Source of the DNA: Aotearoamyces nothofagi
Lineage: Eukaryota; Ascomycota; Leotiomycetes; Leotiales; Tympanidaceae
Assembly: GCA_015345905.1 (NCBI GenBank)
Contig: JADDTR010000029.1
Location: 186,001 to 250,000, forward strand
Direction of reading: 5' to 3'
Length of the DNA stretch: 64,000 bases
Shown one piece after another: positions 15,506 to 45,484 of this stretch. The stretch's first letter is position 1; every line of letters starts with the position of its first letter. Made by a program: the position numbers and the translations under genes. A model generated the notes under the pieces. It searched no databases, was not told where the DNA came from, and was given only the letters and a program-made list of their open reading frames with translations.

Positions 15506-17778
15506 ATGGCCGAAGGTCTGGATAAAACAGAAGAGCTCTATCCCATAGCCGTACTCATTGACGAGCTGAAGGTGTGTTTGATATAATAACTTTCGGGTTA
15601 TCTGTCAGTTTCTGGAGGCTATTCTAATATTTTATCTAGCACGACGATGTCCTCCTACGATTGAATGCCATACATCGACTCTCTACAATTGCACTTGCCC
15701 TTGGAGCGGAGCGCACTAGAGACGAGTTGATACCCTTCCTAGACGGTTCGTAGACGTGTTCCCATCATTGTAAGATCAAACTACTGACGAGATATCGCAG
15801 AATCCGTTGAAGATGAGGATGAGGTCCTTACAGCGTTGAGCGAGGAGTTGGGTAGCTTCGTTGAATACGTTGGCGGTCCAGAATGGGGGCATGTTCTCCT
15901 TTCACCGTTGGAAAACCTCGCCGCCATAGAGGAGCCTCTTGTCCGTGAGAAGGTATTATCGAATGCTCAAGCTATAAGTGATTGCTAATCATCTTTTAGG
16001 CTGTCGAGTCTCTAAATAAAATCTGCGAAGAGCTATCCCCACAACAAGTCGAGGAATATTTTATCCCACTCACGATCCGCCTCTCTAAAGCCGACTGGTT
16101 CACCTCAAAAATCTCTGCAACAGGCCTCTATAATGTTCCCTATAAGAAGGCATCACCGCCGATGCAAGAGCAGCTTCGGCAACAATTCGGACTCCTTGTG
16201 CGCGACGAAACCCCAATGGTACGGAGACAGGCGGCCAATAATCTTGCGAAGTTTGTGAAGGAGATGCCAGCCACGATTGTTGTTGAAGAAATGATACCCT
16301 TATTTCAGCATCTTGCTAGCGATGACCAGGACAGCGTGCGGTTATTGACGGTCGATATTCTCATCGCTATCGCAGAGGTGGTGCCTAAAGAGCAGCAATC
16401 TAGCCATGGAGTCCTGCTTACCGCCCTACGGAGTCTGATTGAAGATAAGAGTTGGAGGGTCCGATATATGGTTGCAGATAGATTTGAAAAGGTAGGCCAA
16501 TACCACTAGATACTACCAGGATGGATACTAATTTTGCCCCAGATTGCGAAAGCAGTTGATGATGAAGTAGTAACACGAGACCTCGTACCAGCTTTCGTAA
16601 AGCTCCTCAAGGACAGCGAGGCGGAAGTCCGAACAGCCATAGCAGGACAGATTCCAGGTAGGAGTCGTTAAAGTCTCCCTTGATCGTCTCGACTAACAGC
16701 ATTAGGATTTTGCACTTTGCTAGACAGGGCAACTCTCCTTAATGATATCATGACGACCATCGAAGACCTTGTCTCGGACAGCTCACAACATGTTCGTGCT
16801 GCTCTTGGTACGCAGATTAGTGGACTTGCCCCTATTCTTGGCAAGCAAGAGTCAGTTTGGTCAGACCCTCCCCCCACACACATGCTAAACGTCTTTCAGG
16901 ACTATCGACCATCTTCTTCCAATGTTTCTTCAAATGCTCAAGGACGAATTCCCTGACGTCCGTCTCCACATCATTTCAAAACTTGAGCTTGTTAACCAAG
17001 GTTCGTGAACCCTGAGCTATTGAAGTGCCCAACTAACGTCTACAATAGTCATTGGTATTGAGCTTCTATCCCAGTCACTCCTACCTGCCATTGTTCAACT
17101 TGCCGAAGATAAGCAATGGAGGGTTCGACTTGCCATCATCGAATATATTCCACTTCTTGCAAGCCAGCTTGGCGTGAAGTTCTTCGACGAGAAACTCAGC
17201 TCGCTTTGCATGGGCTGGCTAGGTGACACAGTGTTTTCTATCCGTGAGGCAGCAACGCATAACCTCAAGAAGCTCACAGAAGTATTCGGTGTTGAATGGG
17301 CGAATGAGGCGATCATCCCTAAGGTTATGGCCATGGGAGCGCATCCAAATTATCTCTACCGCATGACAACATGTTTCGCTATCACCGTAAGTTTGCCTCT
17401 AAGATCTTTAGTGCAAGTCTAATTCCCTGATAGACTCTTGCAACGGTTGTCAGTCTTGATGTGGTGTCAAAGTCAATACTTCCCATGATGGACAAGCTTG
17501 TTGTTGATGACATTCCAAATATCCGATTCAACGTTGCCAAGTCGTATTCAGTTTTGATCAGCGTATTGAAGAGACTACCAAATGAAGGTACTATCTATTC
17601 GCTAGAGAAGTCAGGAAACACTGGCGCAACTCCATCACCTAAGGGCTTGGAATTGATCCAAGAGCGGATACTACCGAATTTGGAGAAGCTACAGAAGGAC
17701 GATGATGTAGATGTCCGCTACTTTGCTACTACAGCTGCGGGTTCGATTTCTGGGGATGCCATGCAAATTTCATCATAG
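15506..17778 (+). CDS. TPD3: Protein phosphatase 2A scaffold subunit A (PR65)
   Basis: HEAT-repeat scaffold that holds the PP2A catalytic and B subunits. Nine exons, 15506-15571, 15640-15745, 15801-15952, 16000-16491, 16543-16657, 16706-16850, 16900-17000, 17049-17386 and 17434-17778, join in phase to 619 residues, close to the family's roughly 590-630. The helical HEAT repeats are evident throughout, for example [60 protein letters not shown] and [19 protein letters not shown]. The C-terminus carries an insertion ([17 protein letters not shown]) within the last repeats. Introns 2 and 7 have GTTCGT donors. It has eight introns, the most of any gene in the window. Confidence 0.95.
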
Positions 17779-35663: not shown

Positions 35664-36013
35664 TCTAATTGATATATTGTCCCTCTATTCTCCTGGTTTC
35701 TCGACACTAAACTCTTACCACCACCAACGTCATTTATTAAATCCCTCCCTTCTCTCTTTATCCGAACCAACATCTGAACTACGGTAGCATCTGAGCCAAC
35801 ATCTATCCCAACACCAACACCGACACCATCTCCCCAAAAGGCAATGAGCAACGACCAACCCACCAACATAGTCCCAAATATAAATATAGCCCTCTTCTTT
35901 CCCACCCGAATAAAAACCGATACTGTATATAATAAGTACCTACCTACTTACCTAGTGCGCACCACCCCCCTTGCCAAAATTAGTATAGTACAGTACTGTA
36001 GTAATCTCAGACC

Positions 36014-36220
36014 ATGGGATCCCACCCAAGAGATTCTCCGTATGGCAAAGCGAGCCGATATCTCGATGCAGTAGCTCTCTTCAGTTTGCTACTGCTACCG
36101 CTACTGTTATTCCTGGCCTGGGAAGCCCGGAAACACCTGACCAATCGACCGCCGACGATGCGAATCGTGGTTCCTAAGATGCTGTACGGTAGGACCTTCT
36201 TCGGGGGAGATAGGGCGTAG
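36014..36220 (+). CDS. Possible small single-pass membrane protein (68 aa)
   Basis: An ATG open frame with one clear hydrophobic segment (VALFSLLLLPLLLFLAW), a basic flank (EARKHLTNRPP) and a short polar tail. No family was recognised. It could be chance in this composition. Confidence 0.25.
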   Translation: MGSHPRDSPYGKASRYLDAVALFSLLLLPLLLFLAWEARKHLTNRPPTMRIVVPKMLYGRTFFGGDRA

Positions 36221-36610
36221 TAGGGCAAAGTAAAGCAGGACAAAGAAAAGTAAGCCAACCTACTACTTACGGTCTGATCGGCCGGTAGACACAGGCCCGT
36301 CGATACTTATCACTAAATCCTGGTAGTGCACTGCTGTCCTGTATACAGACTCGTGTATACCGGCTCATGACCACTAAACTCGCGGCACTTCCCACCTCCC
36401 TCCCACCGCTCATAGCATCTATCTCCTCTCCTCAAGCTCCCGCGTCGCGCATGTCATGCCATGCCTCCTATCCCCATCAGTACAACGACATACGTACTGC
36501 ACCGGCTATAACCAGACAGACGGATAGATCCTCTCGAAGCCCGGATAATAACAATAGCCAAAAGAAAAACCAACATGATATCGCAACCAAACACAAGCTC
36601 GGACTGGATT

Positions 36611-36636
36611 TACTATACTATACTATACTATAGTAT
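36611..36636. repeat. (ACTAT)n microsatellite
   Basis: About five copies of the 5-bp unit ACTAT. The same unit recurs at 40002-40033. Confidence 0.8.
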
Positions 36637-37537
36637 TGTGTTCTAGCGCAAATCATCAAGTCTCGCGATCCCGACAAAGCGATGCTATCCTAGCCATACC
36701 ACGATAGGAATCTCGCTCTCCCCCCCCTCTTCGGACTCCCTCCAAGCAGGCCTCGCTCGTTCGCTTCGCCTGGGGCATTCGTCAGCCTTTTTCCTTCCCT
36801 CTGGCGCCTGCGCGCGCTGCGTGGCGTTGCGTGGAGCGGGCGCGGCGTATTTTTTCTTCTTAATTAATCTCGTTAATTTCCGGAGCGCAAGAGAGTGAGT
36901 GGGCGAGGGAGAGAGAGAGAGGGGCGCGCTTGGGTGGGTGGAGTTTTGACGCGCGGAAAGAGGACCGGCGTCGGTCGGGACCTTGGCCCCCGCCGGGTCG
37001 AGGGCCCCGTTGGGCAGTTGGTGGGGGGATGGGCCATGGGAACTTGGAAAGCATGGAAATAGATGCACAGTTGTGCTTTTTAGGTGGGCAGGTACGTGGA
37101 GTGTCTGGTGTATGGGTTTTATGAAACTACATTATACACCTTTTCATATTTGCTTTTAAATGTAATATCAGAATGGTCAATAAAAAATCAGCCAGGTCAA
37201 AAATGGAACATGGTTAAAGTTGAATGGATAGTTGGAATAGACAGCAATAGCACAGCTATACAAACTGATCCCTGGATCAGAGATCTCTGCCAACATAGCC
37301 AAAGCCAAGACCCGAACAAATCCTTGCCAACTATTATGACATTACATAAAAGATAGCCGAAACACAAAGCCAAGCAAGATATGATGATGTCCTTTTTTCC
37401 CAGTCCATCTATCCGTCCGTGAAAAGTCATGGCCGGCCAAACTAGCCAACGCCGTCTCTATATGCAGGTCATGGCGTAGCATATCGAATGGCCGGGTGTA
37501 TTTGAATCGAAAGGCGTTAACGCGATAAAGGCATGAC

Positions 37538-38152
37538 TTATGCGAAGAAGACAGCAGCAAGACCAGCAAGGCCTGCAAGCAGGACAGAGCCCGAGAAGCT
37601 TGCAGCTGAACCAGTGTAAGCTGTTGGGGTTGGGCTGACGACCGATGTGGTACCGTTACTGGATGAAACTGGGACAGAGCTGGCAGATCCGGTGGAGCTT
37701 GCTACAACGGATGATGCGGAGACAGCTGTGACAGAGGATGCAACCACTGCGACTGATGAGGCAACGACAGCGGATGTGGTAGCCTCAACAGATGAAGAAG
37801 CTGGGCAAGCGTTGACGGTAACAGTGACAACTGCTGGAGCGGAAGATGCAACTGCAACGCTGGAAACTGGTGCAGCAGATGAGGATGCAAAGACGTAGGC
37901 GGAGGTGGAGTTGGCTGGGACGGGGTAGGAGACGGCCGAGCTGGTGGACAAGGTGGTTGGGACGGCGACCGAGCTGGTCAGGACAGCGGCCGAGGAAGCT
38001 GGGTAGCTGGTGGTGCTGGTAACGGTGCTGCGGGCTGGGCAGTTGGTGACGGTGGCAGCGCACGAGGTGATGGTGATCTCCTCGGTGACGTAGGAAGTGC
38101 TCTGGGCAGCAACGGCGCCAATCAAGGCAAAGGCGGCAACGGTGAAACGCAT
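37538..38152 (-). CDS. GPI-anchored Ser/Thr-rich cell-wall protein
   Basis: Intronless, 204 residues. A signal peptide (MRFTVAAFALIGAVAAQ, cut near residue 17) is followed by a domain almost entirely of S, T, V, A and P, which is expected to be heavily O-glycosylated. Two Cys-containing segments stand out: TITSCAATVTNCPA near the start and TVTVNACPASSS in the middle, so four cysteines may pair. The C-terminus (GSAASFSGSVLLAGLAGLAA then VFFA) is a GPI-attachment signal, with Gly/Ser near residue 180 as the likely omega site. The protein probably ends up covalently attached to the wall. It resembles abundant small wall proteins of filamentous fungi, but I cannot name an orthologue. Confidence 0.85.
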   Translation of the reverse strand: MRFTVAAFALIGAVAAQSTSYVTEEITITSCAATVTNCPARSTVTSTTSYPASSAAVLTSSVAVPTTLSTSSAVSYPVPANSTSAYVFASSSAAPVSSVAVASSAPAVVTVTVNACPASSSVEATTSAVVASSVAVVASSVTAVSASSVVASSTGSASSVPVSSSNGTTSVVSPTPTAYTGSAASFSGSVLLAGLAGLAAVFFA

Positions 38153-38649
38153 CTTGATGATTTGAAGGGTATCTTGAGAAAGATTATACTGGGAGAACGG
38201 GAGGTATAGGGGGGTTGAGGGCGGGCTGGTGCTGAAGAGCGGTAGACTGGAACTTGTTCTGTAAAGAATGGACGACCGAAGTCAAAGGGATCAAGTACGA
38301 GAGTGGTAGAGTTGAAGCTTTGTGGGTGAAGAGGAGAAGAGGAGGAAACGGAGGGTGGACGGATGGGATATAAGCCAGCGTGGGAAATTAGCAGCCGGGA
38401 TGCGGACAGGCTAGCTGTGGAAGCAGTAAGTAGAAGACGAGGAAGAAGAGGAGAGAGAGCAGCAGGGGCGGCAGCAGGGGGGGGCCTGTCCCCTGGAGCC
38501 GTTGCTGACGAGCCCTAGACGGGGTAGGGGTAGGGTGGTAGGGGGGTGGTAGGGGGGGGATGGCGAACGTATTGTGCATGCAGGAACAGTGGGAGTGGGC
38601 AAGAGGACGGTAAGGACGGTAAGACGGTAAGGACCGAGGAGCTGCCATC

Positions 38650-38661
38650 TACAGTACTGTA
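38650..38661. repeat. 12-bp palindrome TACAGTACTGTA
   Basis: A perfect palindrome, identical to the one at 35989-36000. Partial copies occur at 40292-40310, 40735-40765, 41350-41365 and 63618-63632. Confidence 0.7.
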
Positions 38662-38664
38662 CTT

Positions 38665-38724
38665 GGCCTGTGGCCTGTAGCCTGTGGCCTGTAGCCTGTG
38701 GCCTGTAGCCTGTAGCAGCCTGTA
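38665..38724. repeat. 8-bp tandem repeat GCCTGTRG
   Basis: About seven copies of GCCTGTAG/GCCTGTGG, the two variants alternating in the middle copies. A short related stretch appears near 39808. Confidence 0.85.
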
Positions 38725-38792
38725 GATAACAGGGGGGCTGCAGTGAACCCGGCCGCTGCCAGTGCCACTCTCGCAGCGTGGCCGCGAAGAAG

Positions 38793-38840
38793 TGGGCGGG
38801 CAGGCAGGCAGGCGGGCAGGCGGGCAGGCAGACCGGCAGG
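38793..38840. repeat. (GGCA/GGCG)n tandem repeat
   Basis: GC-rich 4-bp units GGCA and GGCG in mixed order over about 45 bp. Confidence 0.8.
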
Positions 38841-39026
38841 CCAGCGTCGACTCCCTATGCGCCGAGACAGACGGTGCTGCGGCAGCATCGACGAATGGCA
38901 GCGCGCGGAGCCGTGGGCCTGCAGGAACCCGGGCCACTCCAGGCGCTGCTAGCCTGCATTGGGGCGGCGGGCTCAGGCACGGCGGGTACTGGATTAGCCG
39001 TAGCGTGCCTGGCGGTGCCTGGAGGA

Positions 39027-39067
39027 GCCTGACAATGCCTGACAATGCCTGACAATGCCTGGACAAT
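39027..39067. repeat. 10-bp tandem repeat GCCTGACAAT
   Basis: Three exact copies and a fourth with one extra G. Confidence 0.85.
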
Positions 39068-39350
39068 GGACGGGGCGTCCGGGGGGGGCAGGTGGCCGAA
39101 CGGACCTATAGCAGCCCGGGGTGGTGTTTCGATTTGAGCACAGCATCCATCAGCCCCCAAGTACCTGGAGGGACAGCAGGAAGCAGCCTGGCCGGCGCGA
39201 GATGACGATGTGCCCTGGCCGACGGCCGTTGCCAGCTGACCGGTGCCTGCTGGCCGCTGGCCGCTGGCCGCTGGGCGTTTTTGTTTTGTCGATGGGCATT
39301 TCCACCCTTGGCTGCAGCAGTCCTGCAAGTTCGTTCTGTGCCCTGCACCG

Positions 39351-39382
39351 TACTGCACTACGGTACTGCACTACGGTACTGC
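39351..39382. repeat. 13-bp tandem repeat TACTGCACTACGG
   Basis: Two and a half exact copies. A related CAGTCCAGTGCAGT stretch follows at 39481-39523. Confidence 0.8.
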
Positions 39383-39602
39383 GAGGCCACCCAAGGCCGG
39401 CTAATGCAGGAACTGACGCTGCCGGCCCGCACTACAGTACGTCCTGTGCTGTTTGTACTGGATGCGAGCGGCGACTACGGCAGGTCCAGTGCAGTGCAGT
39501 CCAGTGCAGTGTAGTGCAGTCCAGCTGACGCACAGCTCACGCGGACGCTGGTGCTCTTCGACTGGTGTCCCTGTCCCTCCGTCTCTTTCGTCTCTTCCCC
39601 CC

Positions 39603-39789
39603 GAATACGCTGTACTGTGCTGGATACGCTGTACTGGATACGCTGTACTGGATACGCTGTACTGGATACGCTGTACTGGATACACTGTACTGGATACGCT
39701 GTACTGGATACGCTGTGCTGAATACGCTGTACTGAATACACTGTACTGAATACACAGGATTACACTGTACTGGATACACTGTGCTGTAC
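39603..39789. repeat. 14-bp minisatellite GGATACGCTGTACT
   Basis: About thirteen copies, with variants at fixed positions (GGATAC/GAATAC, ACGC/ACAC, GTACT/GTGCT). Because 14 is not a multiple of three, the array reads through in all frames with a 14-residue period. The internal word GTACTG links it to the palindromes nearby. Confidence 0.92.
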
Positions 39790-40001
39790 CTGCCACTGCT
39801 TCCTGGCAGCCTGTAGCCTGCCTACCTACAACCTCTCTGTAGCCCGTCTGTAGCACCTGCACGCCCGCTGGAAGCCTTTCTACCCCCCCCTCTGACCCAG
39901 CGCTCTCTGCTCTGCGCCGTCCCACCGTCTCCTCCCCATCTGGCACTCTGTAATCCCAAATCCCTTCTACCGTAAGCAGATCGCCAGCTTGTACTTGGAC
40001 C

Positions 40002-44363: not shown

Positions 44364-45342
44364 GGTGACTTCTCAATTTGACATTGCTGGTGAGGTAGCA
44401 ATTTATGGGGGATTGACGGGAAGCTGACGAGTCCCGGAAGGGGCGGGAGACCTGTGGAGAAGAGCCAGTTAGTCAGATCTGCTCACGGGGAAGCTGCACG
44501 GAAGGCACGAGAAACGAACATTCAGGCTCTACCGTTCATCGTCATTGTCGTACAATTCAATCCTAAAGTGTCGTAGGTACGAAGCGTTGCTTGGAATTCG
44601 TCCTTTGCTCGTATGATTTGCGCATGCCAGTGAAGCTACGAATTCGTCCTTAGAAGTCAGACTTAGCGTAACGCGGTAAACTGTGCTGATAAACAAGATG
44701 CACATTCTGGAATGTCGAGTTTAACTCCAAAAGAAAGATTCACATCGTGGGAAAGATACAGTACTCGACATTCATCCTCGAATGGCGCATCATGTAGGAC
44801 AGGACAAGTAGTATACGTCATGGTTAAGACGCTCTCGAGCAGAGGTTCAACGACGTGACCCTTCAAAATGCCTCGGTACTGATATCTTCGGATCGGAACA
44901 ATGGTGATGTGCATGTCTGATTTGTGATTAAGCTGCATAAAGCACAACCTATGATCCGTCCTCCGTGTCATCATGTATCTCCAGCTGCGATCTGAGTAGC
45001 GCCTAATCTATAGGAGCCCTTCTGTCAGGAGCCATTATTTTTACTGTAGAATATGATAGAATCTCGCCGGTAGAAATATGAATAAAGTTAGGAATACAAT
45101 ATATTCTGAATGCTATAATAGGTGTACATATCCATACTTGTCTTGTTTCCAGCACAGTGCATGAGGTACCCTATCTAAACCCTCGTGGTCTCCAGGGATG
45201 GCAATCTGCACACCTTTAGACGGGTGGAGGCCGGCATCTGTTCAATTCACCGGCCGTCTATGCCCGTGACCGAGGAGCCGCTTCACCCGTTTAATCAATT
45301 CAGGCGTATAAGGAATAATAAGGCGCGCTAAGGTAAAACTCA
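44364..45342. other. Intergenic, LCAT-like promoter / tRNA upstream
   Basis: A 979-bp spacer. The left part should hold the LCAT-like promoter and leader. Nothing else was recognised. A 103-codon minus-strand open frame (44663-44974) lacks protein character. Confidence 0.5.
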
Positions 45343-45471
45343 GCCGGAATGGCGCAGTGGTATGTTTTCCACTCCTGAAGATTACTTCGGGATATCGAGT
45401 ATTAACGTGTCAATAGGTAACGCGTCGCACTTGTAATGCGAAGATCCCCAGTTCAATTCTGGGTTTCGGCA
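45343..45471 (+). tRNA. tRNA-Thr (anticodon UGU) with a 57-bp insert in the D-loop
   Basis: Without the insert the gene gives a standard 72-nt cloverleaf. Acceptor stem: GCCGGAA with TTTCGGC (7 bp with one G-U). Anticodon arm: TCGCA, loop CTTGTAA, TGCGA (anticodon TGT, reading ACA). T arm: CCCAG, loop TTCAATT, CTGGG. Discriminator base: A. The A box (TGGCGCAGTGG) and B box (AGTTCAATTC) of the internal Pol III promoter are both intact. There is no intron at the usual 37/38 position. Instead 57 bp lie in the D-loop, between GCGCAGTGGTA and GGTAACGCG. A T5 terminator follows at 45480. Confidence 0.85.
45360..45416 (+). other. D-loop insert of the tRNA-Thr gene (intron-like)
   Basis: The borders are ambiguous because GGTA is repeated at both ends: 45360-45416 or any shift up to 45363-45419, always 57 bp. 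In the first register it begins GTATGT and ends AATAG, with TATTAACG upstream of the end, exactly like this genome's spliceosomal introns. It also contains an 8-bp hairpin (TCCTGAAG, loop ATTA, CTTCGGGA; 45373-45392). Whether it is removed, and by which machinery, cannot be told from sequence. Confidence 0.75.
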
Positions 45472-45479
45472 GACAAATC

Positions 45480-45484
45480 TTTTT
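45480..45484 (+). terminator. Pol III T-run terminator of tRNA-Thr
   Basis: A TTTTT run 9 nt after the tRNA end, followed by further T-rich sequence to about 45550. Confidence 0.75.

Follow-up and report, generated by a model that had tools for sequence, protein, structure and literature searches.

The tRNA-Thr(UGU) gene of Aotearoamyces nothofagi (contig JADDTR010000029.1) raises the question of what kind of sequence interrupts its D-loop and by which machinery it would be removed. The gene lies at positions 45343-45471 of the window, i.e. the whole 64,000-nt stretch of DNA that was analysed, and an insert of 57 nt (45360-45416) separates its G18 from G19. Introns of nuclear tRNA genes are regarded as substrates of the tRNA endonuclease. 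The first-pass annotation had left three interpretations side by side: a spliceosomal-intron-like or transposed element, an ectopic tRNA intron cut by the endonuclease, or a dead gene. Among these, the spliceosomal option has gained ground, and the transposed element, the endonuclease intron and the dead gene have lost it. The insert is considered here, with a probability of roughly 0.9, to be a U2-type spliceosomal intron in a tRNA gene transcribed by RNA polymerase III (Pol III).

Anatomy of the interrupted tRNA-Thr(UGU) gene

The elements of the locus, read from the sequence unless another source is given, are as follows:
45307..45323, + strand: upstream AT-rich element TATAAGGAATAATAAGG, a Pol III promoter type common in the genome
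45343..45359, + strand: exon 1, 17 nt, tRNA positions 1-18
45350..45360, + strand: A box TGGCGCAGTGG of the unspliced gene, its last G being the first intron base
45360..45416, + strand: spliceosomal-type intron, 57 nt, GTATGT...TTAAC...AATAG
45360..45365, + strand: 5' splice site GTATGT
45373..45392, + strand: intronic 8-bp hairpin, TCCTGAAG / CTTCGGGA, from the RNA fold of the unspliced gene
45402..45406, + strand: branch-point word TTAAC, presumed branch A at 45405, 11 nt before the intron end
45414..45416, + strand: 3' splice site TAG
45417..45471, + strand: exon 2, 55 nt, tRNA positions 19-73
45451..45459, + strand: B-box core GTTCAATTC, from the T-loop-core pattern search
45480..45484, + strand: T-run, presumed Pol III terminator

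The 57-bp D-loop insert of the first-pass annotation is confirmed. Indeed, the exons, joined at the predicted junction (...GCAGTG to GTAACGCG...), give a 72-nt sequence that ARAGORN identifies as Thr(tgt); in its unspliced form the gene is wrongly called Leu(caa). Removal of the 57 nt raises the structural tRNA score from 42.5 to 60. The GGTA repeat, the GTATGT start, the AATAG end, the branch-like word TATTAACG and the 8-bp hairpin that had been described are likewise all present, according to the sequence and the RNA fold. The Rfam tRNA match at this locus covers the 3' part only (45407-45463, 30.9 bits), and ARAGORN in bacterial mode predicts no tRNA in the whole window. By structure alone the excision point is ambiguous, with 27 placements within 1 point of the best; a single one of these is a GT-AG placement (score 60 against 61 for the best).

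The A box of the unspliced gene agrees with 8/8 constrained positions of the consensus. The idea that the introns rebuild the A box is given no weight: it is true of the window gene and of some others, but a 7/8 match within 110 nt can be due to chance. With a cloverleaf, the conserved positions, the Pol III boxes and a terminator, the gene has the anatomy that a functional tRNA gene would be expected to have.

Split tRNA genes in the genome

In the Rfam tRNA search of the genome, 63 of 791 candidates were scored; it gave 39 matches, many of them long, and because many isoacceptors were missing from these a T-loop-core search was undertaken. A second split gene was met, namely a tRNA-Cys gene (L029) with the D-arm insert GTCAGT...CACTAAC...TAG. 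Split genes were sought without the use of splice signals, by T-loop cores and then T-runs, a layout found in 29 of the 30 tRNA genes then in hand. The T-loop-core patterns gave four lists, of which the first comprised 100 of 215 places and the others, which are complete, 51, 86 and 72 places. The tRNA-like 3' ends were chosen by eye, 20 + 18 stretches were taken (some identical with low-scoring Rfam places), and every candidate was scored as a tRNA with all excisions of 30-120 nt. Two score classes appeared: genes scoring at least 54 unspliced, and genes scoring at most 48.5 unspliced that reach at least 54 only after an excision.

In all, 57 tRNA genes were resolved, of which 23 carry a spliceosomal-type insert (24 inserts) and 34 do not. 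GT-AG borders were set for 21 genes of the second class, the GT-AG placement being chosen among structurally equal ones, and tRNA-Ala(UGC) (L091) and tRNA-Thr(AGU) (L126, with two such introns) were added to give the 23 genes. These two genes and that of the initiator tRNA-Met (L090) were found by reading the sequence, outside the structural screen; L091 and L126 are absent from the placement test and from the signal counts that concern the first 21 genes. Another gene, L024, was dropped from the structural screen, which it had entered through a wrong 5' end only. A T-loop-intron pattern occurs at 19 places, four of which were read: one is a tRNA (L126), one (L124) resembles an mRNA intron of a zinc-cluster gene, and two are neither. 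After splicing in silico, ARAGORN recovers the expected anticodon in 20/23 genes, the misses being Ile-UAU, Val-UAC and Ala-UGC; before splicing it does so in 0/23, so that such genes can be missed by tRNA annotation.

The 57 resolved genes do not make up the complete tRNA set, since some loci were left out (L028, L067, both L079 genes and the first L075 gene) and four isoacceptors are missing: neither the T-loop-core nor the Rfam search of the genome found genes for Asp-GUC, Phe-GAA, Lys-UUU or Val-AAC. A tRNA-Asp D-arm pattern had 127 places, of which 100 were listed, and the 17 that were read held no tRNA. As for the loci left out, L067 (on C9) and L028 (on C23) are tRNA-like and are explained neither by a 37/38 intron nor by one GT-AG intron. 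L079 comprises two tandem Gly-UCC-like genes, with two T-T mismatches common to both acceptor stems (GCTTCCG opposite CGGTTGC), and these genes may be pseudogenes or edited. A side observation concerns L075:682-848, a tRNA with the anticodon CGU whose body resembles that of its Met-type neighbour and for which a 37/38 intron of 94 nt is predicted.

The recurrence of the same arrangement in 22 other tRNA genes makes the tRNA-Thr(UGU) insert more than a chance feature, and for the same reason a local assembly error, which the first-pass annotation had kept in mind, is an unlikely cause.

The distribution of inserts among isoacceptors bears on the proposal that they are insertions that inactivated redundant tRNA copies. 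Eukaryotic D- and T-arm insertions usually affect one of many synonymous genes and, because other copies exist, have mostly been taken for pseudogenes, as stated in section 5 of PMC4090602. In agreement with this, at least seven isoacceptors of A. nothofagi (Asn-GUU, Leu-AAG, Ser-GCU, Ala-AGC, Thr-AGU, Ala-UGC, Tyr-GUA) have a sister gene without an insert, and the split Ala-UGC gene L091 has an acceptor mismatch (score 54). However, no second tRNA-Thr(UGU) copy was found in the 25.5-Mb genome (55 contigs; pattern search with up to 3 mismatches, and DNA similarity), so that the several intact copies which, according to the first-pass annotation, would mark this locus as a pseudogene were not found. 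The initiator tRNA-Met likewise has one gene by direct search (pattern with up to 3 mismatches, genome), and it carries a GT-AG intron. All resolved genes carry an insert for Cys, His, Gln-UUG, Gln-CUG and others, including both genes found for Lys-CUU and both for Ser-AGA. Furthermore, stems, terminators and splice signals are all retained, and the changes that separate the split Asn-GUU gene from its intronless sister leave the stems paired. Inactivation is thus disfavoured and highly improbable.

Signals of the inserts and comparison with other introns

As delimited, all 24 inserts are 50-76 nt long, have GT...AG ends and contain, 9-16 nt before the 3' end, the branch-point word YTRAY. The 5' splice site is of the extended type (GTRNGN or near): among the first 21 introns, GTAAGT was found 6 times, GTAAGC 5 times, GTATGT, GTGAGT and GTAAGA twice each, and GTCAGT, GTATGG, GTTAGT and GTACGT once each. 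The stricter word YTAAY is present in 19 of these 21 introns, compared with a mean of 2.8 and a maximum of 9 in 2000 shuffles. The insertion sites lie in the D-arm, at positions 24-29, in the T-stem or in the T-loop, namely at 8/9, 9/10, 10/11, 13/14 (2), 18/19 (4), 19/20, 24/25 (3), 26/27, 28/29 (3), 51/52 (2), 52/53, 53/54 (2), 57/58 and 61/62; none of the 24 is at the canonical 37/38 site. This series of GT-AG inserts with a branch-point word in 23 tRNA genes strongly supports the spliceosomal-intron-like option.

When the inserts were placed by structure only, the GT-AG excision was within 1 point of the best in 20/21 genes, where 0.93 would be expected in sum; with L067 included, it was among the best excisions in 20/22. 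The two misfits are His-GUG, for which the GT-AG excision scores 53.5 against 57.5 for another excision, and L067, which passed the structural screen although none of its GT-AG excisions comes within 3 points of the best.

The element ATAAG[CG] occurs within 70 nt upstream of 12/21 intron-bearing and 22/34 other tRNA genes, and in 48/1828 70-mers of the window; the intron-bearing genes thus share an upstream element with the other tRNA genes.

Canonical introns of the same genome provide an internal comparison. Introns at 37/38 are very frequent in this genome and measure 8-94 nt; among the 34 resolved genes that are devoid of a spliceosomal-type intron, the structural scorer predicts one in 28, with lengths of up to 83-94 nt. 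It calls L010 intronless, and the 88-nt length of this gene suggests a 37/38 intron there too. Both kinds of intron reside in tRNA genes and are predicted together in 16 of the 23 split genes, but the canonical ones have a fixed site after position 37, and only 1 of 43 rows (42 distinct introns, L024 being counted twice) has GT-AG ends. YTRAY is found in 2 of the 14 canonical introns of at least 25 nt. The splice signals of the spliceosomal-type introns are therefore absent from the 37/38 introns as a class.

This comparison also bears on the alternative that the inserts are ectopic introns like those of archaea, Cyanidioschyzon and nucleomorphs, with cleavage by the tRNA splicing endonuclease at a bulge-helix-bulge (BHB) motif and subsequent sealing by tRNA ligase. 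According to PMC4090602, some eukaryotes do have such introns in the D- and T-arms, and the introns of these three systems resemble the present ones in occupying the D-, anticodon and T-arms, with several per gene; however, they are attributed there to the endonuclease and a BHB wherever a mechanism is given, those of nucleomorphs are 3-24 nt long, and section 5 of that article describes no GT-AG or branch-point signals for them. At the exact borders, at least 3 of the 4 central pairs of a BHB can form in only 1/21 introns, as against 20/43 rows of 37/38 introns; if the borders are slid by up to 3 nt, this becomes 13/21 (35/43 rows), so that the BHB test favours the spliceosomal reading at exact borders only. 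The eukaryotic endonuclease is said, in the same section of PMC4090602, to measure distance and to need no such helix. Cleavage by this enzyme would leave the GT-AG ends, the branch-point word and its fixed spacing unexplained, and the 37/38 introns do without these signals. The parallel with archaeal and Cyanidioschyzon introns drawn in the first-pass annotation is thus not supported, and an endonuclease origin of the inserts is very unlikely.

The inserts could also be copies of one mobile element, introner-like or a transposon, inserted in tRNA genes. The GGTA repeat flanking the tRNA-Thr(UGU) insert, its 8-bp hairpin and the sites shared by some introns (e.g. four at 18/19) would fit such an origin. 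However, outside the signals the best core score between two tRNA introns is 4, against a shuffled maximum of 5 (4875 pairs), and a DNA similarity search of the genome with the whole tRNA-Thr(UGU) gene returns only the gene itself. As the tRNA introns have no shared sequence beyond their splice signals, the transposed-element option is disfavoured, and a common mobile source is exceedingly improbable; a mobile origin would not exclude spliceosomal removal. Group I and group II introns are longer than these inserts, and were rejected on that ground.

The mRNA introns of one window gene resemble the tRNA inserts in length and branch-point word. Indeed, the gene for the PP2A scaffold subunit (15572-17433) has eight introns of 47-68 nt, placed by homology and also set as GT-AG by hand within the homology gaps, and YTRAY is found in seven of the eight, 9-13 nt from the end; joining of open reading frames was too noisy to yield more.

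Furthermore, both U6 genes above the Rfam cut-off (L101 on C3, L102 on C1) are split by a GC-AG intron, GCAAGT...CTAAC...AG, of 48 and 47 nt, respectively, between GAAACG and ATACA, just before the ACAGA region. The Rfam U6 model is drawn across the intron and its 5' stem is mispaired; once the intron is taken out, L102 regains a GTGCC-TTCG-GGCAC stem. At the place where L101 has ATACAGAGAAG, L102 reads ATACATAGAAG, and the two introns are clearly related (core score 11). By contrast with U6, and as a point against the spliceosomal reading, none of the 16 matches in the genome to 5S rRNA, another Pol III gene, contains an insert, each being 120 nt long.

According to PMC10484740, an mRNA-type intron is present in the U6 gene of S. 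pombe and of some other fungi; as here, a short spliceosomal intron interrupts a structural RNA made by Pol III. The difference is that the hosts are here tRNAs, with at least 23 genes affected at a variety of positions, and that U6, unlike tRNA, itself takes part in splicing. Spliceosomal introns are also known from nuclear rRNA genes of ascomycetes (works cited in PMC2586383 and PMC11782384), which are likewise mRNA-type introns in non-coding RNA genes, but the hosts named in this connection are Pol I transcripts and no tRNA. Searches of the PMC literature yielded no description of a nuclear tRNA gene with a spliceosomal intron; an earlier report may exist outside it.

Proposed processing and its consequences

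Transcription by Pol III and removal of the inserts by the spliceosome, with the endonuclease reserved for the 37/38 introns, would be the most economical reading. In brief, the unspliced tRNA-Thr(UGU) gene has an intact A box, B box and T-run, and Pol III would transcribe it in its entirety. From this transcript the spliceosome would excise the 57 nt as a lariat, with A45405 as the presumed branch point, and join G18 to G19; folding of the D-arm and maturation of the tRNA could follow only afterwards. An additional 37/38 intron, where a gene has one, would be removed separately by tRNA endonuclease and ligase. Within this scheme we infer transcription, actual splicing, the order of the steps and the use of the mature tRNAs.

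From the gene sequences it appears likely that much of the nuclear tRNA complement of this fungus depends on the spliceosome and that two splicing machines serve it, often on the same precursor. The introns would have entered these genes many times, each at a site of its own, and reverse splicing into Pol III RNAs, which are abundant, may have been the route. As a spliceosome-free gene was not found for the initiator Met, Cys, His or Gln, translation would depend directly on mRNA-type splicing.

If this holds, the supply of tRNA needs the spliceosome in at least one fungus, and the spliceosome regularly acts on Pol III transcripts beyond U6. The tRNA-Thr(AGU) gene L126 would then have three introns of two kinds. 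The tRNAscan-SE 2.0 paper (PMC8450103) describes a limit of one intron for eukaryotic tRNA genes, and nucleomorph tRNA genes with two or three are mentioned in PMC4090602. The handling of uncapped Pol III RNAs by the spliceosome, the order in which the two machines act and the entry of introns into genes would become testable in this organism.

Elsewhere in the window, positions 36001-40000 differ from the rest in being GC-rich (0.565); the GC skew is positive there, and the reading frames are repeat-like and of low complexity. A phenylalanyl-tRNA synthetase beta frame shares 85% identity with its counterpart in Amorphotheca resinae, and the relatives recognised among the matches listed are Leotiomycetes.
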